This document shows positions 7,457 to 27,795 of a DNA stretch of 64,000 bases, one piece after another (the stretch's first letter is position 1; every line of letters begins with the position of its first letter). The position numbers and the translations under genes were made by a program. The stretch lies in NCBI GenBank assembly GCA_026004935.1, contig BPKC01000001.1, positions 744,001 to 808,000 of the forward strand, read 5' to 3'. This DNA is from Rhodothalassiaceae bacterium. Lineage in GTDB: Bacteria > Pseudomonadota > Alphaproteobacteria > Sphingomonadales > Rhodothalassiaceae. The notes beneath the pieces are model-generated. The model worked only from the letters and a program-made list of their open reading frames with translations. It had not been told where the DNA came from and made no database searches.

Positions 7457-7590
7457 TGCCGGGCGGGGCGGGCCCGCCGGCCGGACGCAGACACGGCATC
7501 TTGTGCCAGAGATTGGGGTTGTGTTACCCAATTGCGCAAGATGATGTCTGACTGCGGCCGACCGGATAGCGGACCCAGGGCACGAAGCGG

Positions 7591-8232
7591 ATGCGGGACG
7601 CCATGAAATTCTTTGCTTTGACCGGCAAGTTCGCCTGTCTGTTACTTGTATTCTTGTTGGCGGCATGCGGCGGGCGGCTGGAACGGCTGCCGTCGGCGAT
7701 GTTCGTGTCGCCCGATGAGGGACCCGGCCCGAACTACCGCATCGGGCCGCTCGATTCCATCACCGTCTTCGTCTGGCGCAATCCGGAGCTGACCACCACG
7801 GTGACGGTGCGGCCGGACGGGCGCGTGTCGGTGCCGCTCATCGAGGACATCCCGGCGACGGGCAAGACGCCCTCCGAGCTTGCGCGCGACATCGAGGAGG
7901 CGCTGTCCGTCTACATCCAGCAGCCGATCGTGACGGTGATCGTCGAGCAGTTCACCGGCCCCTTCGCGCAGCAGGTGCGCGTCGTCGGCGAGGCGACCAA
8001 TCCGCGGGCGATCCCCTACCGCGCGAACATGACGCTGCTCGACGTCATGATCGAGGTGGGCGGGCTGACCGAGTTCGCCGCGGGCAATTCCGCCCGCCTC
8101 GTGCGCGTGGTGGACGGCCGGCAGCGCGAATACCGCCTGCGCATCGCCTCGCTGATCAAGGACGGCGACATCAGCGCCAATGTCGAGATCCTTCCCGGGG
8201 ATGTCATTATCATTCCGGAAAGCATATTCTAG
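7591..8232 (+). CDS. XrtA-associated polysaccharide export lipoprotein (Wza/EpsL type)
   Basis: Outer-membrane polysaccharide export protein of 213 residues (TIGR03027-like). The N-terminus is a lipoprotein signal peptide with lipobox LLAAC and acylated Cys26. It is followed by the poly_export domain (GPLDSITVFVWRNPELTTTV, VRPDGRVSVPLI) and an SLBB segment (VRVVGEATNPRAIPYR...MTLLDVMIEVGGLTEFA). It should form the export channel with the chain-length protein and kinase encoded next. An alternative ATG at 7603 would still keep the lipobox. This gene opens the rightward EPS assembly run that ends with the exosortase. Confidence 0.92.
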   Translation: MRDAMKFFALTGKFACLLLVFLLAACGGRLERLPSAMFVSPDEGPGPNYRIGPLDSITVFVWRNPELTTTVTVRPDGRVSVPLIEDIPATGKTPSELARDIEEALSVYIQQPIVTVIVEQFTGPFAQQVRVVGEATNPRAIPYRANMTLLDVMIEVGGLTEFAAGNSARLVRVVDGRQREYRLRIASLIKDGDISANVEILPGDVIIIPESIF

Positions 8233-8315
8233 CATGGTGGGCGCGGGCCTCCGGTGGGCGGGGGCGGCAGGGGCCGGCGAGAGGCTGACGGGGACGAAGG
8301 TGCGGACGGCCGCGG

Positions 8316-9905: not shown

Positions 9906-9917
9906 GAGGACGCCGGC

Positions 9918-10952: not shown

Positions 10953-10975
10953 GCGGAAAGGGCGGGCGCGCAGCG

Positions 10976-12529: not shown

Positions 12530-12552
12530 GACGGAGCGGTGAAGGAGGAGGG

Positions 12553-13653: not shown

Positions 13654-13659
13654 CGCGCG

Positions 13660-14574
13660 GTGGGCGGTTCCGCCATGGCGGCGGCGGCAACCGGTGCGGA
13701 TCGCTCCGACCTTCCCTTCGCCTTCAGCGTGGACGTGGAGGAGTATTTCCAGGTCGCGGCCTTCGCCGGGACGATCGCGCGCGAGAACTGGGACCGCCGG
13801 CCGAGCCGGGTGGAGACGGGGCTCGCCGTCGTCACGGAGCTTCTCGCCGCGGCCGGCGTGCGGGCGACCTTCTTCGTGCTGGGCTGGATCGCCGAACGCC
13901 ACGGCCCCGCGATCCGGGCGCTGGCCGAGGCCGGCCATGAGATCGCGCTCCACGGCTTCGACCACCGCCCGGTCTTCCGCATGAGCGAGGCGGCCTTCCG
14001 TGAGGATCTGCGCCGGGCGCGGGCGGCGGTGGAGGATGCGGCAGGCGTCGCGGTCACCGGCTATCGCGCGCCGAGCTTTTCCATCGACGAGCGCACGCCC
14101 TTCGCCCATCGGGTGCTCGCCGAGGAGGGCTTCGGCTATTCCTCGAGCATCTTTCCCGGCCGCACCGACCTCTACGGGATGGCCGACGCACCGCGCCTGC
14201 CCTATCGGCCGCTTGCCGATGCGCCGGGATTCTGGGAGATCCCGGTGCCGACGCTGCGGATTGCGGGCCGCAACCTGCCCTGGGGCGGGGGAGGCTGGTT
14301 CCGCCTGATGCCGGATGCCCTGTACGAATGGGGAATCGGGCGCATCGCCGCGGCGGGGCGGCCGGTGTTCTTCTACTGCCACCCGTGGGAATTCGATCCG
14401 GACCAGCCCCGGGTGCCGGCGTCCTTCCGGTCGCGGTTCCGGCACTACCTCGGTCTCGGCCGCATGCGGGCGCGGATCGCGCGGCTCCTGGCCCGGCACC
14501 GCTGGGGCCGGATGGACGAGCTGCTCGCCGCCTGGCAGGCGCGTGCGTCCATCCGCGGGGAAGGCGAGGCATGA
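13660..14574 (+). CDS. XrtA-associated polysaccharide deacetylase
   Basis: NodB-fold carbohydrate esterase family 4 deacetylase, 304 residues (TIGR03006-like). The metal and catalytic motifs are FSVDVEEYFQ (Asp-Asp type motif 1), HGFDHRP (His metal ligands), TGYRAPSFS (Arg/Pro motif 3) and FYCHPWEFDPDQPR. No signal peptide is evident, so action near the inner membrane or in the cytoplasm is possible. The GTG at 13660 lies 7 nt after the ATPase stop; an ATG at 13675 is a plausible alternative. Its stop overlaps the FemAB-like gene (ATGA). Confidence 0.92.
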   Translation: MGGSAMAAAATGADRSDLPFAFSVDVEEYFQVAAFAGTIARENWDRRPSRVETGLAVVTELLAAAGVRATFFVLGWIAERHGPAIRALAEAGHEIALHGFDHRPVFRMSEAAFREDLRRARAAVEDAAGVAVTGYRAPSFSIDERTPFAHRVLAEEGFGYSSSIFPGRTDLYGMADAPRLPYRPLADAPGFWEIPVPTLRIAGRNLPWGGGGWFRLMPDALYEWGIGRIAAAGRPVFFYCHPWEFDPDQPRVPASFRSRFRHYLGLGRMRARIARLLARHRWGRMDELLAAWQARASIRGEGEA

Positions 14575-15668
14575 CGGACGCGGATACTTGTGGGAACCTG
14601 GACGCGGCGGCGGATCCGGCGATCCGGGTGCGGCCGATGGACCGCGGCGATGCCGGGCGCTGGAACGCCTTCGTCGCCGCACATCCTGCCGGCCGCTTCT
14701 TCCACCGTGCCGAATGGGCGCAGGCGTTCCGGGAGGGATTCGGCCTCGAGCCCGTCTATCTGATGGCCGAGCGCGCGGGCGGCGACGGCGGGCGGGCTGC
14801 GATCGCGGGCGTGCTGCCGCTCGTGATCGTCCGCAGCCGGCTGTTCGGATCGCGGCTCGTTTCGCTGCCCTTCCTGCCCGAGGCGGGGCCGCTCACCGCG
14901 GACGATGGGACGGCGGCCGCGCTCATCGCCGCCGCGCGCCGTCTGGCCGAGCAGGAGCGGCTCGCCTGGGTCGAATACCGTTGCGGCGAGCCGGGGGTTG
15001 AGGGGGCGGTCGCGGTCGGCGGCCGCCATGCGGACTTCACGGGCGAGATCGCGGAGGATCCCGAGGCGCGGCTCGCCGCCATTCCGCGCAAGCAGCGCGC
15101 CTGCGTGCGCAAGAGCCTGGCGGCCGGGCTGGACCACCATGTGACCCGCGCGCTCGAGCCCTTCGTTTCGCTCTACCTGCGCAATCTCCATCACCATGGC
15201 ACCCCGGCCTTCCCGCAGGCCTGGTTCAGGGCTCTGCTCGAGACCTTCGGGGAGCGGGAGCTCGACATCCTCGTCGTCACCCATGAGGGCGAGCCGGTGA
15301 GCGCGGTGATGAGCTTCTACGAGGCCGACACGGTGCTGCCCTATTACGCCGGCACGGCGCCCGCGGCGCGCCGGCTGTTCGCCCACGACTACATGTACTG
15401 GACCCTGATGGAGCATGCCCTGGCACGCGGCTGCCGGCGCTTCGACTTCGGCCGCTCGCGGGTCGGCACCGGCCCCTACCACTACAAGCGCCACTGGGGA
15501 TTTGCGCCGCGCGAGCTGGTTTATCAGTATGATCTGGTGACCGCCCGCGAGCCGCCGGACATGCGCCCCGAGAATGCGAGATACCGGCTGTTCGTGCGGC
15601 TGTGGCGGAAGCTGCCCCTTGCGCTCGCCAACCGCCTGGGGCCGCTTGTGGCCCGCGGCCTCGGCTGA
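14571..15668 (+). CDS. FemAB-like acyl/aminoacyltransferase, XrtA/PEP-CTERM-associated
   Basis: GNAT-fold FemAB-type protein of 365 residues (TIGR03019-like). Such proteins transfer an amino acid or acyl group, often from aminoacyl-tRNA or a carrier protein. Recognisable parts are the first GNAT half (RFFHRAEWAQAFREGFGLEPVYL), the FemAB block RKQRACVRKSLAAGLDH, and the second half ending FDFGRSRVGTGPYHYKRHWGFAP. The ATG overlaps the deacetylase stop. With an ACP, a ligase and a decarboxylase in the same locus, this enzyme is a good candidate for the final transfer step onto the polysaccharide, which is my inference. Confidence 0.9.
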   Translation: MTDADTCGNLDAAADPAIRVRPMDRGDAGRWNAFVAAHPAGRFFHRAEWAQAFREGFGLEPVYLMAERAGGDGGRAAIAGVLPLVIVRSRLFGSRLVSLPFLPEAGPLTADDGTAAALIAAARRLAEQERLAWVEYRCGEPGVEGAVAVGGRHADFTGEIAEDPEARLAAIPRKQRACVRKSLAAGLDHHVTRALEPFVSLYLRNLHHHGTPAFPQAWFRALLETFGERELDILVVTHEGEPVSAVMSFYEADTVLPYYAGTAPAARRLFAHDYMYWTLMEHALARGCRRFDFGRSRVGTGPYHYKRHWGFAPRELVYQYDLVTAREPPDMRPENARYRLFVRLWRKLPLALANRLGPLVARGLG

Positions 15669-15703
15669 GGGCGAAGAGGCAACCGGTCCGGACCGGGGAG
15701 ATC

Positions 15704-16930
15704 ATGCGCATCCTCTGTCTCTTCCATCGCGTTCCCTTTCCGCCGGACAAGGGCGAGAAGCTCAGGGCGCATCACCAGCTGCGCGCGCTCGCCCGGCATT
15801 TCACCCTCGAGGTCGCGGCCTTCCACGACGAGGGACCGCGCGAGGAGGCCGAGGCGTTCCTTGCCGCGCACGCCGAGCACTGGACGCTGGTGCCCCTCGG
15901 CCGGTTGCGGCCGCTCCTGCGCGGCGCGCTGGCGCTGGCGGCCGGCCGGCCCTTAAGCGCGGGGTATTTCCGGCATTCCGGGATCGCGGCGGCCGTGGAG
16001 GCCGCGATCGCGCGGGGTGCGGCGGCGGCCCACGTCTTCTCGGGGCCGATGGCCCGATACCTGCTCCCGCCCGACGGGCGGGCGCGCCTGCCCTTCCTGC
16101 TCGATCTGGTCGACGTCGATTCCGCGAAATGGGAGGCCTACGCCCGGCGCGGGCCCGGGGCACTCGGGCCGCTTTATGCCCTCGAGGCGCGGCGCCTTGC
16201 CGCCTTCGAGAGGCGCGCGGCGGCGGCGGCCGGGCGGGTGACGCTGGTGAGCGCGGCCGAGGCGGCGCTGTTGCGCGCGCGCGCGCCGGAACTGGCGGAT
16301 GAGCGGGTCGCCGTGCTCGAGAACGGGGTGGACACCGCCCATTTCGCGCCGCGCCCGCGCGAGGAAGATGCGCCGCCCGCGCTGATCTTCACCGGGCGCA
16401 TGGACTACCGCCCCAATGTCGAGGGAATCTGCTGGTTCGCGGAGCATGTCTGGCCGCAGCTCGCCGCGCGCCATGCCGGGCTGCGGCTGCTCGTCGTCGG
16501 GGCCGAGCCCGCGCCGGCCGTGCGTCGTCTGGCGCGCGATCCGCGCATCACCGTGACCGGGCGGGTCGCGGACGTGCGCCCCTTCTACGCCCGGGCGGAT
16601 GTCGCCATCGCGCCGCTTCTCATCGCCCGCGGCATCCAGAACAAGCTGCTCGAGGCGATGGCGATGGCCCGGCCCGTGGTCGCCTCGCCCGCGGCCTTCA
16701 CCGGTCTCGACGAGCGGGCGGCCGCCATCGTCAAGGTCGCGGATGCGCCCGGGGAATGGGTGGCGGCGATCGAGGCGCTGCTCGCGGATCCGGCGGCGCG
16801 CGCGCGGCTGGGCGAGGAGGGACGGCGATTCGTGACCGCCCGCTACGGCTGGGCGGCGCGCGGCGAGGAGCTGGTCGCCATGATCCGGGATCTGGCCGCC
16901 GGCGGCAACGGCGTGGGGACGGCGCCGTGA
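15704..16930 (+). CDS. XrtA-associated family 1/4-type glycosyltransferase
   Basis: GT-B glycosyltransferase of 408 residues (TIGR03087-like). The N-terminus MRILCLFHRVPFPPDKGEKLR is characteristic, and the C-terminal donor domain has VENGVDT-like (VLENGVDTAHFAP), FTGRMDYRPNVEG, and IAPLLIARGIQNKLLEAMAMARPVV, the E-x7-E type region. It adds a sugar to the lipid-linked exopolysaccharide repeat in the cytoplasm. The gene ends with a GTGA overlap into the exosortase, so the two are coupled. Confidence 0.92.
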   Translation: MRILCLFHRVPFPPDKGEKLRAHHQLRALARHFTLEVAAFHDEGPREEAEAFLAAHAEHWTLVPLGRLRPLLRGALALAAGRPLSAGYFRHSGIAAAVEAAIARGAAAAHVFSGPMARYLLPPDGRARLPFLLDLVDVDSAKWEAYARRGPGALGPLYALEARRLAAFERRAAAAAGRVTLVSAAEAALLRARAPELADERVAVLENGVDTAHFAPRPREEDAPPALIFTGRMDYRPNVEGICWFAEHVWPQLAARHAGLRLLVVGAEPAPAVRRLARDPRITVTGRVADVRPFYARADVAIAPLLIARGIQNKLLEAMAMARPVVASPAAFTGLDERAAAIVKVADAPGEWVAAIEALLADPAARARLGEEGRRFVTARYGWAARGEELVAMIRDLAAGGNGVGTAP

Positions 16931-17913
16931 GCGGGCCTGTCCAGCCGATCGGCCGCAAGCCGGCGCGGGCGCTGCCGCTGCCGGCCGCGCTGCCGCTTGT
17001 CTGGCTCGTCCTGGCTGCGCTGTTTCTGCCGACCCTTCGGCATCTAGGGTCCGTGTGGTTCGGCAATGTCGTCTTTCACCACCAGCCGCTGGTGGCGGCG
17101 ATCGCGCTGGCCCTGATCGCAGCGCGGCTGCCGGCTGCGGGCGGGCCGGCTGCCGGCGCGGCGCGGCCGGTCTGGCCGGTGGCCGCGGCGGCGGCGGTCT
17201 CCTGGGGCTGGTTCGTCGCCTGGCTTGCGGATCTTGCGATCGGGATGCACGCCGCGCTGCTGCTGCTTGTCGATCTGGCGGTGCTGGCGCTCGTGCCGCG
17301 CGAGGCCTGGCGGCGGCTCGCCTTCCCGCTCGGCTATCTGCTGCTCGCCATTCCGGCCGGACTGGCGCTCGTCCCGGCGCTCATGCACTGGACGGCCTGG
17401 CTGGCGCTCGCGATCCTGAACGTCCTCGACGTCCCCTTCTGGCGCGACGGCTTCGTCATCGAGCTTGCGACGCCCCGGGGGCTTGCGCGGTTTTCGATCG
17501 AGGCGGCGTGCTCGGGGGTGCGCTACCTGTTTGCGAGCCTGTCCATCGGCGTTCTCTTCGCCTGGATCGCGGCCCGCGGCTGGCGTCGGGGCGCCGTGGT
17601 GGCGCTGTTCGCGCTGGTGCCGCCCGTCGCCAACGCCCTGCGCGCGGCCGGGATCCTGTGGCTGGCGGCCGCCGCGGGCCCCGCCCGCGCCCAGGCGATC
17701 GACCACCGCCTCTACGGCCTCGCCTTCTTCCTGCTGACGCTGGCGCTCAGCTTCGCTCTCGCCTGGCCGCTGACCGAAAGGCGGCCCCCGCGGCCGCCGG
17801 CCCGGGCCGGAAGGCGCGCGGGGGCGGTGGTGCCCGCGGGGCGCCTGCTCGCCTTCATCGCCGCCGCGGCCCTGGGGCCCGCGCTAGCCCTGCTGTGGCG
17901 CCTGCTCGTCTGA
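16927..17913 (+). CDS. xrtA: Exosortase A
   Basis: Polytopic inner-membrane cysteine transpeptidase-like enzyme of 328 residues that processes PEP-CTERM proteins. About eight hydrophobic segments are visible. The catalytic set is complete: Cys195 in ACSGVRYLF, Arg239 in VANALRAAGI and His260 in DHRLYGLAFF. The protein lacks the C-terminal EpsI/DUF3485 domain fused to many exosortases, and no separate epsI follows. The GTG start overlaps the glycosyltransferase stop. The last 30 nt overlap the 3' end of phoB on the other strand. No PEP-CTERM substrate was found in the window. Confidence 0.95.
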   Translation: MSGPVQPIGRKPARALPLPAALPLVWLVLAALFLPTLRHLGSVWFGNVVFHHQPLVAAIALALIAARLPAAGGPAAGAARPVWPVAAAAAVSWGWFVAWLADLAIGMHAALLLLVDLAVLALVPREAWRRLAFPLGYLLLAIPAGLALVPALMHWTAWLALAILNVLDVPFWRDGFVIELATPRGLARFSIEAACSGVRYLFASLSIGVLFAWIAARGWRRGAVVALFALVPPVANALRAAGILWLAAAAGPARAQAIDHRLYGLAFFLLTLALSFALAWPLTERRPPRPPARAGRRAGAVVPAGRLLAFIAAAALGPALALLWRLLV

Positions 17914-18609
17914 GGCGGGAGGCGGCTCGAAGGCGTAGCCGGCCGCGCGGACCGTGCGCACCGGGTCCGGCTCGCCGGGGGCGTTCAGCGCCTTGCGCAG
18001 GCGGCGGATGTGGACGTCGACGGTGCGGATCTCGATGTCGCTGTCGTGCCCCCAGACCGCGTCGAGCAGCTGCTCGCGGCTGAAGACGCGGCCGGGATGC
18101 TCCATCAGATGCCTGAGCAGCCGGAATTCGGTGGGGCTGAGATGCACGCTCCGGCCCGCGCGCGTGACCCGGTGCGCCACCGGATCGAGCCGTATGCCGC
18201 CGGCCTGAAGCACCTCGCCGTGCAGCGCGGGCCGCAGCCGCCGCAGCACCGCCTGGATGCGGGCGATCAGCTCGCGCGGCGAGAAGGGCTTGGTTACGTA
18301 GTCGTCCGCGCCGGTTTCCAGCCCCCGCACCCGGTCCGCCTCGTCGCCGCGGGCGGTGAGCATGATGATGGGCAGGTTGCGCGTCTGCTCGCGCCGGCGC
18401 AGGCGCCGGCAGAGCTCGAGCCCCGAAAGCTCCGGCAGCATCCAGTCGATGATCGCGAGATCCGGCGGCTGCTCGATGATCCGCAGCCAGCCCTCCTCGC
18501 CGTCGTGGACCGCCTCGGCCGCGAATCCCGCGGCCTTCAGGTTGTAGGCGAGCAGCTCGACGAGATGCGGATCGTCCTCGACGACGATGATGCGGCCCCG
18601 CTCGCCCAT
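17884..18609 (-). CDS. phoB: Phosphate regulon response regulator PhoB
   Basis: OmpR-family response regulator of 241 residues. The receiver has acidic pocket E11-D12-D13, phosphoacceptor Asp55 in IIDWMLPE, Thr in MLTARG and Lys in VTKPFSPREL. The C-terminal winged helix carries SPTEFRLLRHLMEHPGRVFSREQLLDAVWG and RTVDVHIRRLRKAL, matching PhoB. I chose the ATG at 18609 rather than the upstream extension, because the receiver begins right after MGERGR. It follows phoU by 7 bp in a leftward phoU-phoB operon. It should bind the Pho box upstream of pstS. Confidence 0.95.
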   Translation of the reverse strand: MGERGRIIVVEDDPHLVELLAYNLKAAGFAAEAVHDGEEGWLRIIEQPPDLAIIDWMLPELSGLELCRRLRRREQTRNLPIIMLTARGDEADRVRGLETGADDYVTKPFSPRELIARIQAVLRRLRPALHGEVLQAGGIRLDPVAHRVTRAGRSVHLSPTEFRLLRHLMEHPGRVFSREQLLDAVWGHDSDIEIRTVDVHIRRLRKALNAPGEPDPVRTVRAAGYAFEPPPASDEQAPQQG

Positions 18610-18616
18610 CGCCGCG

Positions 18617-19348
18617 TCAGCGCCGCTCGTTCTCGCCGCGGTCCGCGGCATCAGAGATCACGGCGCTCTCATCGCTCTTGGGGCGCTCGTCGGGCAGTTG
18701 TTCGCCCTTGACCATGAAGTAGACGACCTCGGCGATGTTGGTGGCCTGGTCGCCGACGCGCTCCAGATTCTTGGCGATGAAGAGCAGATGGGTCGCGGCC
18801 GTGATCCGGCGCGGCTTCTCAACCATGTAGGTGAGCAGCTCGCGGAACAGGCTGGTGTAGAGGGCGTCGACCTTCGCATCCGCCTGCCAGACCGCCACCG
18901 CCCCCTCGGCATCGCGGGCGATGAAGGCGTCGATCACCCGGCTCAGCATGCCCCGCACCTCGTCGGTGAGCACGGGGATGAGCTGGGACGGCGCATCCGG
19001 CAGCGAGCCGATCAGCACCGTCGTGCGCTTGGCGATGTTCTTCGCGTAGTCGCCGACGCGCTCCAGCGCATTGATGATCTTCACGATCGCCATGATCTCG
19101 CGCAGGTCGTCGGCTACCGGGGCGCGCAACGCGATGATCTGCAGCGCCCTGCGCTCGCCCTCGGCCTCCATGGCGTCGAGCGCCCTGTCGCGCGCGATCA
19201 CGTCCTCCGCGAGCGCCGAGTCGCGCTCGACCAGCGCACGCACGGCATCCGCCAGCGCCTCGTCCGCGCGCGCCGCCATCTCGCCGACATGGGCGCGCAG
19301 CCGTTCCAGATCCTCGTCATAGGCGCGCAGGGTGTGCTGGACCGTCAT
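18617..19348 (-). CDS. phoU: Phosphate signalling complex protein PhoU
   Basis: Cytoplasmic regulator of 243 residues with two three-helix PhoU repeats. The repeat signatures are VKIINALERVGDYAKNIAK and LLFIAKNLERVGDQATNIAEVVYF, the E/D-xxx-D metal-binding motifs. It links the PstSCAB transporter to PhoR, keeping the regulon off when phosphate is plentiful. It is transcribed leftward with phoB and diverges from pstS across a 278-bp control region. The last ~20 residues are charged (PDERPKSDE...). Confidence 0.96.
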   Translation of the reverse strand: MTVQHTLRAYDEDLERLRAHVGEMAARADEALADAVRALVERDSALAEDVIARDRALDAMEAEGERRALQIIALRAPVADDLREIMAIVKIINALERVGDYAKNIAKRTTVLIGSLPDAPSQLIPVLTDEVRGMLSRVIDAFIARDAEGAVAVWQADAKVDALYTSLFRELLTYMVEKPRRITAATHLLFIAKNLERVGDQATNIAEVVYFMVKGEQLPDERPKSDESAVISDAADRGENERR

Positions 19349-19466
19349 GGCAGATTACGGCTCCTTCGCTCGCATCGGGTACGGGGCCCGTCCGATCCCC
19401 ACTATGGCCCGAAGGCGCGGCACAAGTCGAGACCGGGCCCGCGCCGTCACCCGCACGCGCATAGGC

Positions 19467-19491
19467 GCGCAATGTGACGGTTTCATTGCGC
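19467..19491. promoter_or_regulatory. Perfect 8-bp inverted repeat in the phoU-pstS divergent region
   Basis: GCGCAATG (19467-19474) and CATTGCGC (19484-19491) are exact inverted arms around 9 bp. The element lies about 40 bp upstream of the Pho box, midway between phoU and pstS. It could be a second operator or, less likely, a transcript hairpin. No known regulator is assigned. Confidence 0.45.
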
Positions 19492-19526
19492 CGCCACCGG
19501 CCCTTGCCCGGTACCGGCCGCGACGG

Positions 19527-19545
19527 CTGTAACCAAACTGTCGCA
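19527..19545 (+). promoter_or_regulatory. Pho box upstream of pstS
   Basis: Two CTGT half-sites (19527-19530 and 19538-19541) are spaced by exactly 11 bp and separated by an A/C-rich AACCAAA, the arrangement of PhoB half-sites (CTGTCAT-N4-CTGTCAT). It lies 82-100 bp before the pstS ATG. PhoB-phosphate should bind here in place of a -35 element under phosphate starvation. Confidence 0.75.
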
Positions 19546-19626
19546 TGAGCCGGGCATGAAGATCCCGCCCGGGGGCCGAATCGATCGCTCCCGGGGCGGA
19601 AACAGCGGATGCAAGCGAGGTGGAAG

Positions 19627-20643
19627 ATGAAGAAGACACTGGGCGCCCTGGCGGGCATCGCGTTCGCCCTGTCGATCGCGGGCGAGGGCGGCAGCACGGC
19701 GCAGGCGGCGCCGGAGCTGATCAAGATCGACGGCTCGTCGACCGTCTACCCGATCACCGAGGCGATGGCCGAGGAATTCCAGGCGGCGACGCGCGGCAAG
19801 TATCGCGTTACCGTGGGCATCTCCGGCACCGGCGGCGGTTTCAAGAAGTTCTGCCGCGGCGACACCCACATCTCCGACGCCTCGCGGCCCATAAAGGCTT
19901 CCGAAATGGAGCTGTGCAAGGCCAACGGCATCACCTTCATCGAGCTGCCGGTCGCGCTCGATGCGCTGGCGGTGGTGGTCAACCCGAAGAACGACTGGGT
20001 CGACTATCTGACCGTCGCGGAGCTCAAGAAGATCTGGGAGCCGGCGGCCCAGGGCAAAATCACGCGCTGGAACCAGGTGCGGCCGAGCTTCCCGGACCGG
20101 CCGCTCGTGCTCTTCGGCGCGGGCACCGACTCGGGCACCTATGACTACTTCACCGATGCGGTGGTCGGCGAGGAGGGCGCAAGCCGCGGCGACTACACCG
20201 CCAGCGAGGACGACAACGTTCTGGTCCAGGGTGTGGAGAGCGACGTCAACGCCCTCGGCTTCTTCGGCTTCGCCTATTACTGGGAGAACCGCACCCAGCT
20301 GAAGGCGGTGCCGATCTCCTGGAAGGGCAATCCCCCGGTCGAGCCTTCGATCGAGAATGCGCGTGCCGGCAAGTATCAGCCGCTTTCGCGGCCCATCTTC
20401 ATCTACGTCAACAGCAAGGCCGCCGACGAGCACGAGGGCGTGCGCCGGTTCGTCGAATTCTATCTCGATCCGGCGAATGCCCTGCCGCTCGTGGAGGAGG
20501 TGGGCTATGTGCCGCTGCCCGAGGAGGCCTACCGGCTCGCCCTCGAGAACTTCCGCGAGCGGCGCACCGGCACGGCGTTTGCCGGCGGTTCGCAGGTCGG
20601 CGTGTCCATCGAGGACATCCTGAAGGCCGAGCGCAGCCACTAG
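19627..20643 (+). CDS. pstS: Periplasmic phosphate-binding protein PstS
   Basis: High-affinity phosphate-binding component of the Pst ABC transporter, 338 residues. It begins with a Sec signal peptide ([22 protein letters not shown], cleavage near AQA-AP). Phosphate-binding loops are visible in [32 protein letters not shown] and SGTYDYF. The ATG at 19627 has a GAGGTGGAAG RBS and starts the signal peptide cleanly, so it is preferred over an in-frame ATG at 19609. It is first in pstSCAB and sits behind a Pho box. Confidence 0.96.
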
Positions 20644-20660
20644 GAATCCCGGGTGCCGGC

Positions 20661-20698
20661 GGCCCGGGCGGGCGGCCTGTGAGGCCCCCGCCCGGGCC
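20661..20698 (+). terminator. Strong pstS-pstC intergenic hairpin
   Basis: A GC-rich stem of about 16 bp pairs 20661-20677 with 20683-20698, with one bulged C and a TGTGA loop. No U-tract follows. Placed just after the pstS stop, it probably works as an attenuator and 3' stabiliser, so that much more PstS than PstC/A/B is made, as in other pst operons. Confidence 0.6.
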
Positions 20699-20808
20699 CG
20701 GCCGCGGGCCGCGTGGCGTCACCCCGTGGCGCAAGGGGTTTTCCTCGCCCCGGCCTTTCGTCTAGATGCGGGTGCGCACGGCGCGGGCGCGAGATGCGGG
20801 TGAACGCG

Positions 20809-21759
20809 ATGGCCGAATCGCAGACCGCCAGTCCGGCAGTCCTGGTGAGCGGGGCGATCACCGCCTCGCCCGGCTTTCTGCTGCGCCGGCGCATCATCGG
20901 CGAGGTGATGCGCGCTCTCCTGTTCCTTGCGGGCTCGGTGTCGGTGCTGACGACGATCGGGATCCTCTACGTCCTGATCAGCGAGAGCGCCGTCTTCTTC
21001 GCGCATGTCCCGCTCAAGGAATTCCTGACGGACACGATGTGGACGCCGCTGTTCGCGGATCCGCATTTCGGCATCCTGCCGCTGGTGACCGCCACCCTTC
21101 TCGTCTCCGGCGTGGCGCTCATGGTCGCGATCCCGCTGGGGACCGTTCTCGCCCTGTATCTGAGCGAGTTTGCGCCGCCGCGCCTGCGCGAGATGGCCAA
21201 ACCCGTGCTCGAGCTGCTGGCCGGCGTGCCGACCGTCGTCTACGGCTATTTTGCGCTGCTGTTCGTCACCCCGCTGCTGCAGAAGATCATCCCCGGGCTG
21301 TCCGGCTTCAACATGCTCTCCGCCGGTCTCGTCATGGGGGTGATGATCATCCCCTATGTCGTCTCCTTGAGCGAGGATGCGATGCGTGCCGTGCCCGACA
21401 GCCTGCGCGAGGGCGCCTTCGCGCTCGGCTTCTCGCGCCTGCGCACGGCGCTCAGGGTGGTGCTGCCGGCGGCGCTGTCCGGGATCACGGCGGCCTACAT
21501 CCTGAGCATGTCGCGGGCGGTGGGCGAGACGATGGTGGTGGCGATCGCCGCCGGGCAGAATCCCAACTTCACCTTCGACCTGCGCGAGGGGGCGGCGACG
21601 ATGACGGCCTACATCGTCCAGGTGTCGTTGGGCGACGTGCCCCACGGCTCGCTCGCCTATCAGACGATCTTCGCCGTCGGCATGGCGCTTTTCGTGATCA
21701 CGCTGGTGTTCAACATGCTGGGTTTTGCGCTCCGCCGGCGCTTCCGGGAGGTCTACTGA
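20809..21759 (+). CDS. pstC: Phosphate ABC transporter permease PstC
   Basis: Inner-membrane permease of 316 residues with six predicted membrane segments. The ABC-permease EAA loop region is EGAFALGFSRLRTALRVVLPAALSGI, and the conserved VPTVVYGYFALLFVTP and SRAVGETMVVAIAAGQ segments mark PstC. The start is uncertain: ATG 20809 has a GGTGA sequence upstream, while ATG 20794 would add five residues. The gene is separated from pstS by a strong hairpin and from pstA by 3 bp. Confidence 0.94.
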   Translation: MAESQTASPAVLVSGAITASPGFLLRRRIIGEVMRALLFLAGSVSVLTTIGILYVLISESAVFFAHVPLKEFLTDTMWTPLFADPHFGILPLVTATLLVSGVALMVAIPLGTVLALYLSEFAPPRLREMAKPVLELLAGVPTVVYGYFALLFVTPLLQKIIPGLSGFNMLSAGLVMGVMIIPYVVSLSEDAMRAVPDSLREGAFALGFSRLRTALRVVLPAALSGITAAYILSMSRAVGETMVVAIAAGQNPNFTFDLREGAATMTAYIVQVSLGDVPHGSLAYQTIFAVGMALFVITLVFNMLGFALRRRFREVY

Positions 21760-21762
21760 GCC

Positions 21763-22689
21763 ATGAACGGCGCATCGCGGCCGGCCAGTGAGGGGACCAT
21801 CGCGCGGGTCGTGCACCGGGCCCGGCGCAGCGACCTGCTGTTCGCGGGCCTCGGCGTCGTCGTGCTCGTCATCGCGCTCGCGATCCTGTTCGCGCTGATC
21901 GGAGACCTCTTCATCCGCGGCGCCGAACGGCTGAGCTGGGACTTCTTCATGAACTTCCCCTCCCGTCGGCCCGAGCGGGCGGGCATTCTCTCGGCCTGGG
22001 TCGGCACGGTCTACGTGATGATCGCGACCGCGGCCGTCGCGATCCCGATCGGGGTCGCCGCCGGCGTCTACCTCGAGGAATACGCCGGCAAGAACTGGCT
22101 CTCCGACGTCATCGAGATCAACATCACCAATCTGGCCGGCGTGCCCTCGATCATCTACGGCCTGTTGGCACTCGGCCTGTTCGTCTACGGCTTCGGCATG
22201 GGCGAGACGATCAAGGTGGCCGGGCTGGTGCTGGGCCTGCTGATCCTGCCCATCATCATCGTGTCCACGCGCGAAGGTTTGCGCAGCGTCCCGCAGCAGC
22301 AGCGCGAGGCGGCGGTGGCGCTGGGCGCGGACAAGTGGCAGGTAACCTGGGGCTACGTCCTGCCGGCGGCCCGGCCGACGATTCTCACGGGCATCATCGT
22401 CGGCCTGTCGCGCGCGATCGGAGAGACGGCGCCGATCATCACCATCGGTGCGCTCACCTTCATCGCCTTTCTGCCCGATCCGCCGATCACCGGCCATTTC
22501 CCCTTCATCAGCTTCGCCTGGCTCGACAGTCCGTTCACGGTGCTGCCGATCCAGATGTTCAACTGGGTCTCGCGTCCGCAGGCGGCCTTCCATGTGAACG
22601 CGGCCGCCGCCGGCATCGTGCTGCTCGGGCTGACCCTTGCGATGAACGGACTGGCGATCTGGATCCGGGCGCGGCTGAGGCGGCGCTAG
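21763..22689 (+). CDS. pstA: Phosphate ABC transporter permease PstA
   Basis: Second membrane subunit of the Pst transporter, 308 residues. Recognisable segments are [29 protein letters not shown] (shown here only as its start VGTVYVMIA), [19 protein letters not shown], the EAA loop [20 protein letters not shown] and [15 protein letters not shown]. It pairs with PstC and is driven by PstB. It lies 3 bp after pstC and 35 bp before pstB. Confidence 0.95.
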
Positions 22690-22724
22690 CCGGCCGGTAC
22701 CCGGGGCTTGAGGAGCGCAGGAGC

Positions 22725-23552
22725 ATGAAGAACGCGGAATACGGGGCGATCATCGAGCGCCGTGCCAGCGAGGGCAAGCTCGCCGGCGCCAACGCCCTGC
22801 GTGCGGACGTGCGCGGGCTGAACTTCTGGTACGGCGACTTTCACGCCTTGAAGGACGTCTCCTTTCCGGTTCACGACCGGCGGGTGACGGCGCTGATCGG
22901 TCCGTCCGGCTGCGGCAAGTCCACGCTGCTGCGCTGCTTCAACCGCATGCACGATCTCTACCCGGGCAACCGCTACGAGGGCGAGATCCGGCTCTATCCC
23001 GAAGACGAGAACATCGTCGATCCGAGAACGGATGCCATGCTCGTGCGCATGCGTGTCGGCATGGTGTTCCAGAAGCCCAATCCGTTTCCCAAATCGATCT
23101 TCGAGAACGTCGCCGCGGGGCTACGTGTGCGCGGCATCCGCAATCGCCGCTTTCTCGAGGAGCGGGTCGAGGCGGCGCTCAAGGGGGCTGCGCTGTGGGA
23201 CGAGGTGAAGGACAGGCTGGACGCGAACGCCTATTCGCTCTCGGGCGGCCAGCAGCAGCGCCTGTGCATCGCCCGCGCGCTCGCGACCGAGCCGGAGCTG
23301 CTTCTGCTGGATGAGCCGACCTCGGCACTCGATCCCATCGCCACCGCGAAGATCGAGGATCTCATCGAGCAGATCAGCGAGCACATCACGATCCTCATCG
23401 TCACACACAACATGCAGCAGGCCGCGCGCATCTCGCATTACGTCGGCTACATGCATCTCGGCGAGATGGTGGAATTCGGCGAGACCACGCAGATCTTCGT
23501 CTCGCCGCGCGAGGAGCGCACCAAGGACTACATCACCGGCCGCTTCGGCTGA
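22725..23552 (+). CDS. pstB: Phosphate ABC transporter ATP-binding protein PstB
   Basis: ATPase of the Pst transporter, 275 residues. Walker A is GPSGCGKST, the Q-loop is [16 protein letters not shown] (a PstB hallmark), the signature is LSGGQQQRL, Walker B is [13 protein letters not shown] and the switch His is in VTHNMQQA. The start ATG is preceded by AGGAGCGCAGGAGC. Its last 25 nt overlap the 3' end of phoR on the opposite strand. Confidence 0.97.
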
Positions 23553-24742
23553 CCGCCGTCGGCACCGTCGGCACCGTCGGCTCCGGCCGCGGCCGCGGGC
23601 AGGCGGACGCTCACCGTCGTGCCCGCGCCCGGGCGGCTCGCGATCTCCAGCCGGCCGCCGTGGCGGCGGACGATGTGCTTGACGAGCGCAAGCCCCAGTC
23701 CCGTGCCGCCGAGGCTGCGCGAGCGCGCGGCGTCCACGCGGTAGAAGCGTTCGGTCAGCCGCGGCAGATGTTCGGGCGGAATCCCGGGCCCGCGGTCGGC
23801 GACGGTGAGCAGCCAGGCGCCGTTCTCGGCCGCAAGCGAGATGGTGACGGGTCCGGGCCGGCCGTACTTGATCGCGTTGTCGACGAGATTGGTGAGCATC
23901 TGCACCAGCCGGTCCTCCTCGCCGGCGACCGGTGCCGCATCCACGGCGATCTGCGCGGCGAGCGTCACGCCGGAGTCTTCGGCAAGACCGCCCATGACCG
24001 CAACGACGCGGCGCACCACGGCCACGAGGTCGGCCCGGGCATCGGCGGCGAGCGGCGGCTCGGCCTCGAGTCTGGACAGCGACAGCAGGTCGTCCACCAG
24101 CCGGTTCATGCGCCGCGCTTCCGCCTCCATCAGCGCGAGAAACCGCGCGCGGGCCGCGGGGTCGTCGCGCGCCGGGCCGGAGAGCGTCTCGATGAAGCCG
24201 AGGAGGGCGGCAAGGGGCGTCTTGAGCTCATGGCTCACATTCGCGACGAAGTCGGCGCGCATGCGCGCGGCCCGCTCCTCGGCGGTGACATCCTTGAGGA
24301 CGATGAGGATGCGGCCGCCCGCGTCCTCCCGCCCGTCGACGGCGACGCGGCGGGCATAGGCCGCAAAGCCGCGCTCGCCATGCCGCAGGGTGATGGGCCC
24401 GCTGCGCGCGGCGCCGGCCGCGATTTCCGAGAGGGCCTCCGCCATGGCCGATGCGCGCAGGAAAACCCGCACGTCCCGCCCGGGCTCCGCCAGCGGAAAA
24501 AGCCGCCGCGCCGCCGCATTGCACCACTGCAGCCGCAGCCTGCCGTCGGCGACGAGAACCGGATCCTCGAGCACCTCGAGGACGGCGGGCGTGAGCGCGG
24601 CGGGCGGGCCGTCGCGCGCGCCCGCGAGCTCTGCGGGCGCGGGCCGCGGCGATGGGCGAGCCGGCTGCCGCGCCCCGGTGCGCCGCACCCCGAAGAACCT
24701 GTCGCGAAGCCGTGCCAGAAGCCCGGATGGCGAGGTGGTCAT
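23528..24742 (-). CDS. phoR: Phosphate regulon sensor histidine kinase PhoR (soluble form)
   Basis: Sensor kinase of 404 residues with a PAS-like domain (roughly residues 50-155), then the dimerisation/phosphotransfer H-box with His171 in [15 protein letters not shown]. The ATPase motifs are N ([10 protein letters not shown]), G1 (DRGPGIP), F (ERFYRVD) and G2 ([13 protein letters not shown]). The assignment to PhoR rests on the motif set and on its place beside pstB. Unusually, no N-terminal transmembrane segment is visible: the first 40 residues are Arg/Pro-rich. The C-terminus has a short GAD repeat. The gene is leftward and convergent with pstB. Confidence 0.9.
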
Positions 24743-24826: not shown

Positions 24827-25546
24827 GTGAGTGCGGACGACGACCGCATCGGAACCGACGAGAAGACGGACACGGAGGACGAGGCGCTCGCCTCGCTGCG
24901 CGCGGGGCTGGAGGCGACGCCGGAAGCCACCCGGCGCTTCGTGCTCGGCACCTTGCTGGCCGCCGGGCCCATCGTGCTGACCGCGCGCCCGGCCTGGGCT
25001 CACCAGGCGATTTCGGTCCCGGATTGCGAGATCGTCATCTGCCTGGACAGGAAGCGCTGCGAGCGCGACGACGACGATGACGACGATGACGACGATCGTC
25101 ACCGCAACCAGACCGGCCGCGGCCATGACGAGCATGGGCAGGGGTACGGCTACGGCCATCACAAGGACCGTGACGACGACGATGATGACTGCGACGACGA
25201 TGACGACGATGACGATCGTCACCGCAACCAGACCGGCCGCGGCCATGACGAGCATGGGCGGGGCCACGGCTACGGCCATCACAAGGGCGGCGGCGGGGAT
25301 GACGACGACTGCGACGAGACCGTCGTCGTGAATGCCCGCAACTACATCGATTTCGCCGCCGACGGCCGCTTCGACGAGCCGATCTATCCGACGAGCCAGA
25401 CGGGTCCCCATGTCTCGCCGCAGGAGGCGGCGCGCATCCGCAAGGCCATCCGCCGGCTGGCCCGCGGCAGGGCGCGGGTGATCGCCTCGACGAGCTGCTG
25501 GACGTCGGCGATGGATTTCCTGACCCAGAACCGCCGGCGCCACTGA
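24827..25546 (+). CDS. Tat-signal-like protein with Asp/His-rich tandem repeat (unrecognised family)
   Basis: Unrecognised 239-residue protein that heads a four-gene operon. The first 33 residues are acidic. A twin-arginine-like signal follows (TRRFVLGTLLAAG at 35-47, cleavage near AWA-H at 58/59), predicting export. Residues 81-120 and 121-160 are two copies of a 40-residue unit made of an Asp run, RHRNQTGRGHDEHG and a Gly/Tyr/His stretch ending HHK. The tail (163-239) is normal-complexity with VVVNARNYIDF and STSCWTSAMDF. There are six Cys (67, 72, 78, 122, 162, 224). It could bind metals or be the substrate of the modifying enzymes encoded next. The GTG start is inferred from the operon and frame. 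Confidence 0.7.
   Translation: MSADDDRIGTDEKTDTEDEALASLRAGLEATPEATRRFVLGTLLAAGPIVLTARPAWAHQAISVPDCEIVICLDRKRCERDDDDDDDDDDRHRNQTGRGHDEHGQGYGYGHHKDRDDDDDDCDDDDDDDDRHRNQTGRGHDEHGRGHGYGHHKGGGGDDDDCDETVVVNARNYIDFAADGRFDEPIYPTSQTGPHVSPQEAARIRKAIRRLARGRARVIASTSCWTSAMDFLTQNRRRH
25067..25306 (+). repeat. 120-bp tandem duplication inside the Asp/His-rich gene
   Basis: Two 120-bp units (25067-25186 and 25187-25306) encode the 40-residue repeat. The core 25091-25139 is identical base for base to 25211-25259, including third positions, and identity resumes over most of the next 27 bases. This implies a recent duplication or ongoing homogenisation. GAC/GAT runs in the units also make the locus prone to slippage. 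Confidence 0.9.
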
Positions 25547-25550
25547 CGCC

Positions 25551-25835
25551 ATGGCGGGAGATGGCGCCGGCAGCCGCTTCGTCCTTCACAGCCTCGGGGC
25601 GCTGGTGGCCGTCCACGACCGCCGCTACGCCCAGAACCATCTGCTCGATGTCGTGAGCGCGGCGCATCTCCTCCTCGATCCCGAGGCGGCGCTTGCGCCG
25701 GCCGCATTGTGCCGGCGGCTGGAGAAGCGGCTGGGGCTCGCGCCGGGATCGCTCGCCGAGAAGCATGTGGAGGCGGCGCGCGCGCGGCTCAGGGCGCTGG
25801 GGCTCGTGGCGACGGCGACGGTGGTTCCGGGCTGA
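25551..25835 (+). CDS. PqqD-family protein, HPr-rel-A system type
   Basis: Small 94-residue protein resembling the PqqD-like peptide chaperone (RiPP recognition element) of the so-called HPr-rel-A system. It shows the short strand-helix pattern: FVLHSLGALVAVHDRRY, then NHLLDVVSAAHLLLD and the terminal helices CRRLEKRLGL and VEAARARLRALGLV. It lies 4 bp after the Asp/His-rich gene and 20 bp before the kinase gene. PqqD-like domains bind leader peptides and present them to modifying enzymes. It is not part of PQQ synthesis here, since no pqqA/C/E genes are near. Confidence 0.75.
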   Translation: MAGDGAGSRFVLHSLGALVAVHDRRYAQNHLLDVVSAAHLLLDPEAALAPAALCRRLEKRLGLAPGSLAEKHVEAARARLRALGLVATATVVPG

Positions 25836-25855
25836 CGCGGCAACGACGGGGCGCC

Positions 25856-26740
25856 ATGCAGACCACGCTTCAGATCGGCGCCGTCGCCTATGCGCTTCAG
25901 GTGGAGGGGCCGCGGGCCGCGCGCGCTGCGGTCGCCCGGCATCTGGCCTTCTGCTATGGCGACTACCCGCCGGCCCGGGACTTCATCGACCATGTGATCC
26001 GCCTCGCGCCTCCGAATCCCTGGCGCCGGCATGTCAGGCCCAGTCTCGTCTCCGACGTGCCCGCGCCCGTGCCGCTGGTGCCGCTTCCGGCGCGGCTGGC
26101 GCCGGTGGCGCTGGAGAGCGCCATGAATCTCGCGACCGCGGGCGAGAACGAGCGCTTCATCCTCTTCCATGCCGCGACCATCGCCCGCGGGCGGGACGCT
26201 CTCGTGCTGCCGGGCGACAGCGGTGCCGGCAAGTCGACGCTCGCGGCGGCCACCATGCTGGCGGGCTGGACGCTGCTGTCCGACGAATACGCCGCCTTTG
26301 ATCCCATGGCCGCGCGCGAGCTCGCGCCCGTGCCGCGGGCCGTCTCGCTCAAGAACGAGTCGATCGCCTATCTCGCCGACCGCTTCGGCGCCCGGGCGCG
26401 CCTCGGCGAGCCCTGGCCCGGCACGCCCAAGGGCACCATCGCCTTCCTGCGCGCCGCGCCGGTCCCACAGGAGAGGCGCTTTCGCCCGGTGGGCGTCGTC
26501 TTCCCCGACCGCCGGCCGGGAGCGGGCGCGGGGCTCTCCCGCCTCGATCCCGTCGAGGCGGCAACCCGGCTCATCGAGACGGCGATGAATTTCGCCGTCC
26601 AGGGCGAGCCTGCGGTCGCGGTGCTCGGCGATCTCGTGACCCGCGTTCCGGCCTGGGCGCTCACCTATGATGACGCCGCCGATGCCCTGCCCGTGCTCGA
26701 GGACGTGCTCGCGGGGCGGGCGAAGGGGGCGCGGCCATGA
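25856..26740 (+). CDS. HprK-related kinase A
   Basis: 294-residue protein homologous to the C-terminal half of HPr kinase/phosphorylase (HprK-related kinase A type). The P-loop GDSGAGKS lies at residues 120-127 in LVLPGDSGAGKSTLAAA and is followed by WTLLSDEYAAFDP, which resembles the HprK post-P-loop acidic motif. HPr itself is not encoded nearby. Related HprK-like enzymes phosphorylate precursor peptides in lasso-peptide clusters, which makes peptide or protein phosphorylation a reasonable guess. It is coupled by an ATGA overlap to the nucleotidyltransferase gene. The true substrate is unknown. Confidence 0.82.
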   Translation: MQTTLQIGAVAYALQVEGPRAARAAVARHLAFCYGDYPPARDFIDHVIRLAPPNPWRRHVRPSLVSDVPAPVPLVPLPARLAPVALESAMNLATAGENERFILFHAATIARGRDALVLPGDSGAGKSTLAAATMLAGWTLLSDEYAAFDPMAARELAPVPRAVSLKNESIAYLADRFGARARLGEPWPGTPKGTIAFLRAAPVPQERRFRPVGVVFPDRRPGAGAGLSRLDPVEAATRLIETAMNFAVQGEPAVAVLGDLVTRVPAWALTYDDAADALPVLEDVLAGRAKGARP

Positions 26741-27795
26741 GCGGGTTCGACCGCAGCCCGTTGCTCGCGGTGCTTTGCGATCCGCGGCGCTTCCTCGCCC
26801 TCGACCCGCTCGCGCAGGGGCTCGCCTTCCAGCGTGCGCGGCGGCTTGTGCTGGCCGGGCGGCTGGCGGCGGGGCTTGCCGCCGTCGTCGATGAGGGGGA
26901 CCCGGCACCGCCACTGCGTGCCGCGGTTGCGGGAGCCCTGCGCAGCCAGCGGTACCGCGAGGGGCTGATCCGGCGCGAACTGGACATCCTCGCCCGCGAC
27001 TTTCTGCCGCGGTTCGGCGCGCCCGTGGTGGCGCTCAAGGGCGCGGCCTATCTCATCAGGGGCCTTGATGCGGCGCTCGGGCGGATCGCCGCGGATGTCG
27101 ATCTGCTCGTGCGCGAGAGGGACGTAGACCAGGCGGCCGCCCTGCTGGGTTCGCTCGGCTACACGGTCGCCGAAGAGAAGGACAACCCTTACGACCGCCG
27201 CTACTACCGCGTCTTCATGCACGAGGTCGCGCCGATGCGCCATGACGAGCGGGGCGTCGAGCTCGACCTTCATTTCCGGCTGCTGCCGCGCACCCATCGG
27301 CTGGCCTTTCCCATGGATGCGGTGTGGGAGCGGATCCGGCCGGCCGGGACCGGGGGCTATTTCGTGCTCGATGACGCGGATCTGTTCATCCACGCCGCCA
27401 TCCATTTCCTGATCGACGGGGAGGGACGCGAGGCGACGCGGCGGATGCTGGAGCTCCACGATCTGCTGCGCCTGTGGCCCGATCCCGCCGCCGCGCGCGC
27501 GGCGGTGCTGCCGCGGGCATCCGAACTGGGACTCCTGCGTCCGCTCGAGGCCGCCTTCCTGCTGCTGGACGAGCTCGACGACGCTCTGGCGGGCCGCCGC
27601 CCGGGGACGCGGCCGGGGCCGCTGCGGCTTGCGCGCAGGGCGCTGTGGCGCGTGCAGGAGGAGGAAGAGGGCGGCCGGCCGGCGGCGCTCGCGCGTTTCG
27701 CACTGTGGCTGAGGGGCCATCTGCTGCGCATGCCCCTGCCGCTTCTTGCGCGCCATCTCGTCACCAAATGGTGGCGGCGCCGGCGCGGGGAGTGA
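26737..27795 (+). CDS. Nucleotidyltransferase family protein (PF14907-like) of the HprK-related cassette
   Basis: 352-residue minimal-nucleotidyltransferase-type protein. The core is VVALKGAAYLIRGLD (G-rich segment) followed by ADVDLLVRERDVDQA, whose D-x-D provides metal ligands, and VELDLHFRLLPRTHRLAF with the third acidic residue. The helical C-terminal half (LFIHAAIHFLIDGEG and onward) fits PF14907 proteins, which also occur in RiPP and lasso-peptide clusters. It is the last gene of the cassette. It may attach a nucleotide to a protein, peptide or small molecule; no acceptor can be read from sequence. Confidence 0.8.
   Translation: MSGFDRSPLLAVLCDPRRFLALDPLAQGLAFQRARRLVLAGRLAAGLAAVVDEGDPAPPLRAAVAGALRSQRYREGLIRRELDILARDFLPRFGAPVVALKGAAYLIRGLDAALGRIAADVDLLVRERDVDQAAALLGSLGYTVAEEKDNPYDRRYYRVFMHEVAPMRHDERGVELDLHFRLLPRTHRLAFPMDAVWERIRPAGTGGYFVLDDADLFIHAAIHFLIDGEGREATRRMLELHDLLRLWPDPAAARAAVLPRASELGLLRPLEAAFLLLDELDDALAGRRPGTRPGPLRLARRALWRVQEEEEGGRPAALARFALWLRGHLLRMPLPLLARHLVTKWWRRRRGE

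Follow-up and report, generated by a model that had tools for sequence, protein, structure and literature searches.

A leader-bearing partner protein with an invariant serine as the candidate substrate of the HPr-rel-A cassette

The four-gene cassette at positions 24827–27795 of the window (the whole 64,000-nucleotide stretch of DNA analyzed here) consists of the three HPr-rel-A enzymes preceded by a gene for a protein with a twin-arginine leader (gene 1). The pairing of the trio with gene 1 is near-obligate across genomes. The cassette is probably a leader-guided protein-modification system that is carried with its own substrate, in which the PqqD-family protein, the kinase and the PF14907 protein would act on a serine of the gene-1 protein and the product would leave by the Tat route. 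NCBI names HPr-rel-A enzymes in many proteobacterial genomes without stating their target, and a near-obligate partner with one invariant serine makes this orphan kinase system testable. The trio was treated as an unknown system in an earlier sequence-only reading of this DNA; it has in fact already been named the HPr-rel-A system by NCBI curators (NCBIfam TIGR04352 and TIGR04353, with PF14907), as far as visible by name only. The window trio matches the same families in the same order, and its HprK and PqqD proteins appear to be divergent members that score just under the curated cut-offs. A search limited to open-licence literature found no paper describing the HPr-rel-A system or a Tat-leader RiPP. 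Relative to the NCBIfam models and the papers found, the first-gene partner, the invariant serine, the gene-1 classes and the exosortase-A linkage are new.

Operon layout and enzymes

All four open reading frames lie on the + strand with intergenic gaps of 4, 20 and −4 bp (Table 1). These coordinates bear out the operon proposed in the sequence-only reading, and its identification of a PqqD-like protein, an HprK relative and a PF14907-type protein agrees with the matches to TIGR04353, TIGR04352 and PF14907. Gene 4 is located directly 3' of the kinase gene, as in the relatives examined, and overlaps it by 4 bp. Of 100 relatives, 65 have an HprK_rel_A match that exceeds the cut-off, as do hundreds of genome contigs, and the neighboring gene set around it recurs in the relatives; the recurrence of the cassette is far beyond chance. 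No sigma-70-like sequence was found in a search for the cassette promoter.

Table 1 Features of the cassette (positions in the window).
Feature	Position	Strand	Description	Basis
Gene 1	24827–25546	+	Predicted substrate, 239 aa, GTG start, without Pfam/NCBIfam family	ORF, class I alignment
120-bp tandem repeat in gene 1, 2.0 copies	25069–25317	+	Encodes Asp/His/Gly-rich segment, 40-aa unit	
Codons of S-C-W-T-S, residues 223–227	25493–25507	+	Ser227 codon (25505–25507), predicted modification site	
Gene 2	25551–25835	+	PqqD-family adaptor (PqqD_rel_X-like), 94 aa	TIGR04353 match
Gene 3	25856–26740	+	HprK_rel_A kinase, 294 aa	TIGR04352 match, alignment, model
Gene 4	26737–27795	+	PF14907 nucleotidyltransferase-fold protein, 352 aa	PF14907 match, alignment, model

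The gene 2 product matches PqqD_rel_X over its full length with an E-value of 4.4e-6 and 27.6 bits, which is below the cut-off of 35. It does not have the usual SG-x-TH motif, and its position in the operon is that expected for a PqqD_rel_X adaptor. The full-length match of the gene 3 product to HprK_rel_A (E = 1.8e-55, 188 bits) is just under the cut-off of 200, and close relatives pass this value (e.g. 214.7 bits in the same-genus genome G001). The P-loop, noted earlier as intact, is present as GDSGAGKST, and the alignment indicated conservation of H105, GxGKS, D143-E144, K166 and K192. The kinase model (pLDDT 96.2) and a Foldseek search indicated the PEPCK/HprK fold. The P-loop, the catalytic His and the acidic pair are shared with HPr kinase/phosphorylase (HprK/P) and the PEP carboxykinase fold. 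The gene 4 product matches PF14907 with an E-value of 1.3e-35 and 123.6 bits (cut-off 31.2). Its residues D120, D122 and D177 are invariant in the alignment, and the pLDDT of its model is 92.6. No solved relative of the PF14907 protein was found by sequence, and the closest solved folds to the model, MenT1 and ANT(2'')-Ia, are weak matches. Judged from the alignments, the catalytic residues of both the kinase and the nucleotidyltransferase are intact.

In contrast to HprK/P, nothing points to HPr as the substrate of the gene 3 kinase. A canonical HPr gene, ptsH, occurs elsewhere in the genome, at ~157.6 kb of C1 in an ordinary rapZ/EIIA/ptsH neighborhood. This locus is about 610 kb from the cassette, in agreement with the earlier remark that no HPr gene is near, and HPr was rejected as the substrate on this basis.

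The gene-1 protein and its invariant serine

An RR-leader protein of the gene-1 type adjoins HprK_rel_A at 151 of the 159 non-redundant loci with enough flanking sequence to be informative, and no gene 1 was visible at the remaining eight. The sequence-only reading had asked whether the first gene would be absent or replaced at random in other genomes carrying the trio; at these loci it is not. A profile of the leader matched 132 ORFs just upstream of HprK, while elsewhere in the loci it matched only 3 of 10,568 ORFs, all three of which are gene-1 proteins. When whole genomes were searched with this profile, each of the 12 that bear the cassette yielded gene 1, and the 14 cassette-free genomes gave only marginal matches (E > 1e-3), none of them convincing. 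A generic Tat signal was rejected as the cause of the leader match because of this lack of convincing matches in the cassette-free genomes. Gene 1 is duplicated at three loci (L005, L048 and L051), and genome G031 has an orphan copy distant from the cassette that retains the C-terminal motif described below. Such extra copies are expected if several substrates share one enzyme set.

In the window protein, the RR pair at residues 36–37 is followed by a hydrophobic stretch ending in AWA. The twin-arginine leader makes gene 1 a predicted Tat substrate, and TatC is encoded in the same genome. The Pfam TAT_signal model did not match the window protein and gave one sub-threshold match among ten gene-1 relatives. 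The protein contains six Cys, 44 Asp and 14 His. The Asp/His-rich repeat was rejected as the functional core; it is an optional decoration that most relatives lack. The proposal that gene 1 is the substrate of the enzymes is supported by the pairing, by the absence of gene 1 from cassette-free relatives and by the invariant serine. The Cys/Asp/His-rich repeats are not the conserved part according to the sequence comparison.

In the alignment of 45 class I gene-1 proteins, whose mean identity is 15%, only four positions are invariant, namely two cysteines, a serine and one of the two arginines of the RR pair. The serine is located in a C-terminal [S/T]-C-x-x-S motif (SCWTS in the window protein, with Ser227 at +3), and all 81 class I proteins with the motif carry Ser, never Thr, at the +3 position. 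The motif was found in 82 of 152 gene-1 proteins (shuffled rate in those, 3.6%). Class II proteins (beta/gamma, nearly half of the cassettes) do not have the C-terminal motif, and their invariant serines are near the mature N-terminus; for this reason a single common acceptor site is not proven. The kinase clades track the gene-1 classes, with 6 changes counted on the kinase tree against 54 in shuffles. Plain vertical descent could also account for this co-segregation. The gene-1 protein is likely the target of the kinase because it is a near-constant partner, predicted to be exported and fast-evolving, with a single invariant serine.

It is also conceivable, though unlikely, that gene 1 is the substrate for another chemistry or at another residue, for example with the PF14907 protein nucleotidylating or glycosylating a serine directly, or an invariant cysteine being modified, and HprK_rel_A having another role such as that of a phosphatase or an ATP-driven chaperone. 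Both cysteines are as invariant as the serine in class I. Annotations describe the PF14907 family as nucleotidyltransferases, but the lasso-cluster member PsmN attaches hexoses to phospho-Ser (PMC9266682), and no activity was observed for LppN (PMC13381572). On the other hand, the HprK relatives of similar clusters phosphorylate Ser. A few class III proteins (L064, L092, L098, L116 and L123) appear to have a serine at a similar C-terminal place with the cysteine replaced. The apparent retention of this serine (AYTSLT, ASSLTG) favors Ser over Cys as the modified residue.

Related systems and proposed mechanism

The lasso kinases PadeK, ThcoK, SyanK and PsmK modify a C-terminal Ser of their precursors (PMC9266682), and tailoring of the paeninodin/pseudomycoidin type shares with the cassette an HprK-like kinase and an annotated nucleotidyltransferase. 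Unlike lasso clusters, the cassette has no lasso cyclase and B2 protease, and its predicted substrate is an exported protein of 120–270 aa instead of a short peptide. As stated in the sequence-only reading, no lasso macrolactam synthetase (C) or B2 protease was seen among the called genes within ~7 kb on each side, which were read by eye. The lasso analogy drawn there holds for the HprK-like tailoring; lasso clusters share the place of best analogue with linear polyphosphorylated peptides (LPP; Popov et al., 2026, PMC13381572), which are also made without a cyclase. LPP clusters, first found in capsule loci, share with the cassette a discrete recognition element, an HprK-like kinase and an uncharacterized NTP transferase. 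In LPP, one Ser of a leader-bearing substrate is phosphorylated; LppK modifies Ser, not Thr (PMC13381572). The Bacillota host, the SpI leader peptidase, the MsbA-like exporter and the YxxP leaders that mark LPP (PMC13381572) are missing here. Gene 1 has an RR leader at its N-terminus in place of the LPP precursor motif YxxPxVLxHQxIxFETxxS (PMC13381572), and the protein is larger with a predicted C-terminal site. No SpI-type leader peptidase or MsbA-like transporter was seen, by eye, among the called genes adjoining the cassette. Membership in either group was rejected because the called genes around the cassette include no cyclase, B2 protease, SpI peptidase or ABC exporter. The invariant serine and the intact kinase residues would fit a lasso-like or LPP-like phosphorylation of a leader-bearing substrate bound by a discrete recognition element.

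We infer the following order of steps. In the cytoplasm, the PqqD-family adaptor would bind the gene-1 protein by its twin-arginine leader and present the protein's tail to the HprK_rel_A kinase. The kinase would use ATP or GTP to place at least one phosphate on the invariant Ser of [S/T]-C-x-x-S (Ser227 here). The PF14907 protein may then add a nucleotidyl or sugar-phosphate group that caps or extends this phosphate. The modified gene-1 protein would be exported by the Tat route with removal of the leader, and its two invariant cysteines would allow a Cys–Cys bridge. It would act at the cell surface, perhaps within the exosortase-A polysaccharide matrix. More tentatively, HPr-rel-A might be a further HprK-type Ser-phosphorylating system, in addition to those of HPr, lasso peptides and LPPs, whose target is a whole PF14907-capped, Tat-exported surface protein coupled to exosortase-A polysaccharide; it is equally tentative that this target evolves almost freely except for the RR pair, the two Cys and the one Ser. 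If the proposal is true, adaptor-guided Ser (poly)phosphorylation extends from short peptides to exported proteins, PF14907 enzymes gain a native candidate substrate, and protein modification is newly linked to exosortase-A biofilm polysaccharide.

Pho and exosortase-A neighborhoods

Among the called genes within ~7 kb of the cassette are PhoB, PhoU, Pst, PhoR and Gph, as read by eye. PhoR adjoins the cassette in the window as well as in 17 of 93 relatives with wide flanks, often together with Pst genes. This would suit a phosphate-regulation module in which the kinase monitors phosphate status alongside PhoR and Pst, gene 1 being a phosphate or metal scavenger. We consider this highly improbable. 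The neighbors of the cassette differ outside the window's order, the Asp/His-rich segment is not the conserved part of gene 1, and no Pho-box-like site was found upstream of or near gene 1; control by the Pho regulon was rejected on the last ground, together with the lack of a sigma-70-like promoter in the search above.

An exosortase-A (XrtA) polysaccharide locus is located at 4.4–17.9 kb of the window, and cassettes are often adjacent to such loci. Genomes with XrtA are enriched for the cassette (p = 1e-7 for the order and p = 7e-10 for the class), and in Oxalobacteraceae it directly adjoins XrtA polysaccharide export genes. Both observations would also be consistent with enzymes that modify a molecule other than the gene-1 protein, for example an exopolysaccharide or lipid precursor made by the exosortase-A locus. 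Gene 1 would then be an exported partner, such as an anchor or acceptor, that the kinase does not itself target. This explanation seems rather unlikely; it leaves the invariance of the serine needing another explanation, and PqqD-family proteins bind peptides in known pathways. According to hand-counted tables of co-occurrence at the phylum level, about half of the cassette-bearing genomes are without XrtA, and XrtA was rejected as an obligate partner. Gene 1 pairs with the cassette more tightly than XrtA does.

The operon and its named families

The window corresponds to C1:744001-808000 (C1, a contig) of a complete 2.9-Mb genome; judging by those that carry names, the relatives sampled belong to Alphaproteobacteria. 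The four genes of the cassette all lie on the + strand with intergenic gaps of 4, 20 and -4 bp in order and form a single operon, as the sequence-only reading had claimed. Its identification of the last three products as a PqqD-like protein, an HprK relative and a PF14907 protein was borne out by the NCBIfam and Pfam models, with both NCBIfam scores falling below their cut-offs. Owing to these matches, the trio already carries a curators' name, and our literature search found no paper describing it. The window cassette is a divergent member of this named but unexplained system. For gene 1 and ten relatives, none of the curated Pfam or NCBIfam families scored at or above its cut-off. What the present analysis adds is a likely substrate family, gene 1, and a single candidate Ser.

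Coordinates of the cassette, its neighbors and an orphan paralogue (window numbering unless a locus is named).
Feature	Coordinates	Strand	Remarks
Gene 1	24827-25546	+	first gene of operon
Gene 2	25551-25835	+	TIGR04353 'HPr-rel-A system PqqD family peptide chaperone', 27.6 bits (cut-off 35)
Gene 3	25856-26740	+	TIGR04352 'HprK-related kinase A' (HprK_rel_A), 188 bits (cut-off 200)
Gene 4	26737-27795	+	PF14907, 123.6 bits (cut-off 31.2)
Exosortase A (XrtA) exopolysaccharide locus	4436-17913		TIGR03098, 03099, 03027, 03018, 03016, 03015, 03006, 03087 and XrtA itself
PhoB-PhoU, PstSCAB, PhoR	17884-24742	-, +, -	named from sequence
Orphan gene-1 paralogue	L199 (G031:C2) 1419-2040, counted on reverse complement	-	leader and SCxxS motif

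Pairing and conservation of gene 1

Loci around HprK_rel_A came from two sources: genomes sampled at the levels of the window's order, class and phylum, and a scan of named genomes. Removal of duplicate kinases left 164 loci, and 159 remained after five truncated by contig ends were set aside. With a profile built from 64 twin-arginine (RR) leaders, and a few clear misses added by eye, a gene 1 with an RR leader was located next to the kinase in 151 of the 159 (149 on the same strand; L107 and L179 on the opposite one). The earlier reading had named absence or random replacement of gene 1 beside the trio as evidence against itself, and the loci as a whole do not show this pattern. The eight loci lacking gene 1 (L004, L042, L049, L081, L133, L181, L182, and L188) include orphan or rearranged kinases.

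At a threshold of at least 15 bits, the 64-leader profile matched 132 of 935 ORFs upstream of the kinase versus 3 of 10,568 elsewhere, and all three of the latter are gene-1 proteins. A separate profile of 24 leaders, used for whole-genome searches, recovered gene 1 in 12/12 cassette-bearing genomes (E no higher than 1.3e-4), while 14 cassette-free relatives gave only marginal matches (E > 1e-3) to unrelated proteins. The leader profile therefore picks out more than just any Tat signal, and a generic Tat signal as the source of the match was rejected on the strength of those 14 genomes.

Gene-1 proteins are extremely variable. Class I, to which the window belongs, occurs in Alphaproteobacteria, another proteobacterial group and one Methylococcaceae MAG. 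In a 45-sequence alignment (mean identity 15%), only four columns do not vary: one Arg of the RR, a Cys just past the leader, a C-terminal Cys and the motif Ser. The motif [ST]C..[ST] lies within the last 60 residues of 82 of 152 unique gene-1 proteins (shuffled rate in the same proteins, 3.6%). The search admitted Ser or Thr at +3, yet this residue is Ser in 81/81 class I motifs that could be aligned. The flanking consensus is G-x-[ST]-C-[W/L/V/I/F/Y]-x-S-[I/F/L/V/Y], and the window protein has S223-C-W-T-S227. Its 40-residue Asp/His-rich repeat is an optional decoration. Low-complexity inserts (Ser/His/Asp-rich, Asn/Gly-rich or Asp-rich) were seen in mid-gene 1 of differing genera, e.g. L012 474-1062.

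The class II protein is of another kind and occurs in beta- and gammaproteobacteria, Massilia and Thiobacillus among them. Its invariant residues are the RR, two Cys, and two Ser near the first of these Cys; it also has a G-x-SPGYWK region. The small class III (Chromatium, Accumulibacter; L064, L092, L098, L116, L123) seems, by eye, to lack the C-terminal Cys while retaining the final Ser (SSAAYTSLTKI, SSMSASSLTG).

Two gene-1 copies are present at L005, L048 and L051, and genome G031 has an extra orphan paralogue on a contig other than that of the cassette (PGISCIISIVNYLGSN), as expected if one enzyme set serves several substrates. L063 (Thiobacillus sp. RI_561, 7971-13093) carries two tandem kinase/NTase sets around one class II RR protein. 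On a kinase tree of 146 proteins, gene-1 class changes 6 times versus 54 in shuffles, an agreement partly owed to common descent. A few cassettes look to have been transferred as a unit; the alphaproteobacterium G100 has a kinase within the class II clade and a class II gene 1.

Catalytic residues and a proposed route

The highly confident gene 3 model (pLDDT 96.2) resembles HprK/P and PEP carboxykinase in sequence and fold comparison, and H105, the GxGKS loop, D143-E144, K166, K192 and N245 are invariant across 52 kinases. HPr is encoded within a rapZ-EIIA-ptsH neighbourhood at a distance of ~610 kb, which agrees with the reported absence of an HPr gene nearby. In the gene 4 model (pLDDT 92.6), the invariant D120, D122 and D177 make up a predicted nucleotidyltransferase-like active site; the nearest solved folds, MenT1 and ANT(2'')-Ia, match weakly. 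TatC is encoded in the genome.

In lasso clusters, HprK-like kinases phosphorylate a C-terminal Ser of the precursor, at times repeatedly, and PsmN, annotated as a nucleotidyltransferase, puts hexoses onto the phospho-Ser (review PMC9266682). In the linear polyphosphorylated peptides (LPP) described in 2026, the HprK-like LppK modifies a peptide that bears a leader and is gripped by a discrete recognition element; it acts on one Ser and not on Thr, there is no cyclase, and activity of the NTP transferase was unseen (PMC13381572). The window cassette shares this logic but lacks the LPP leader motif and the peptidase and exporter of the LPP type. On this common logic we propose, by analogy, that a lasso/LPP-type leader-guided Ser kinase may have been moved onto an exported protein. 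The PqqD-family protein would hold the RR leader, the kinase would phosphorylate the motif Ser, the PF14907 enzyme would cap the phospho-Ser, and the Tat route would export the product. What the data show is gene order, families, intact catalytic residues, gene-1 pairing and conservation; the steps themselves are inferred. The sequence-only reading is confirmed in its observations and supported in part in its interpretation: pairing and conservation favor gene 1 as the substrate, and its modification is the inferred part.

Exopolysaccharide and phosphate-gene neighbors

Co-occurrence of XrtA and HprK_rel_A was counted by hand, and the tests ignore shared ancestry. Under this proviso, XrtA was present in 63/67 HprK_rel_A genomes versus 15/33 without among 100 relatives (Fisher p 1e-7), and in 10/11 versus 31/374 in the class sample (p 7e-10). 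The phylum sample gave ~31/61 versus ~35-37/337, so XrtA is enriched with the cassette but not required. In Oxalobacteraceae the cassette directly adjoins XrtA export genes. In the order of the window it adjoins PhoR, often Pst too, and the PhoR side is kept in many relatives; no Pho-box-like site was found upstream of gene 1 in the window. A surface or matrix role for the product is plausible. Elsewhere in the window, a tandem repeat with a 195-bp unit (2.6 copies, 99% matches) occupies 62250-62758, in a region where a single weak ORF was called.
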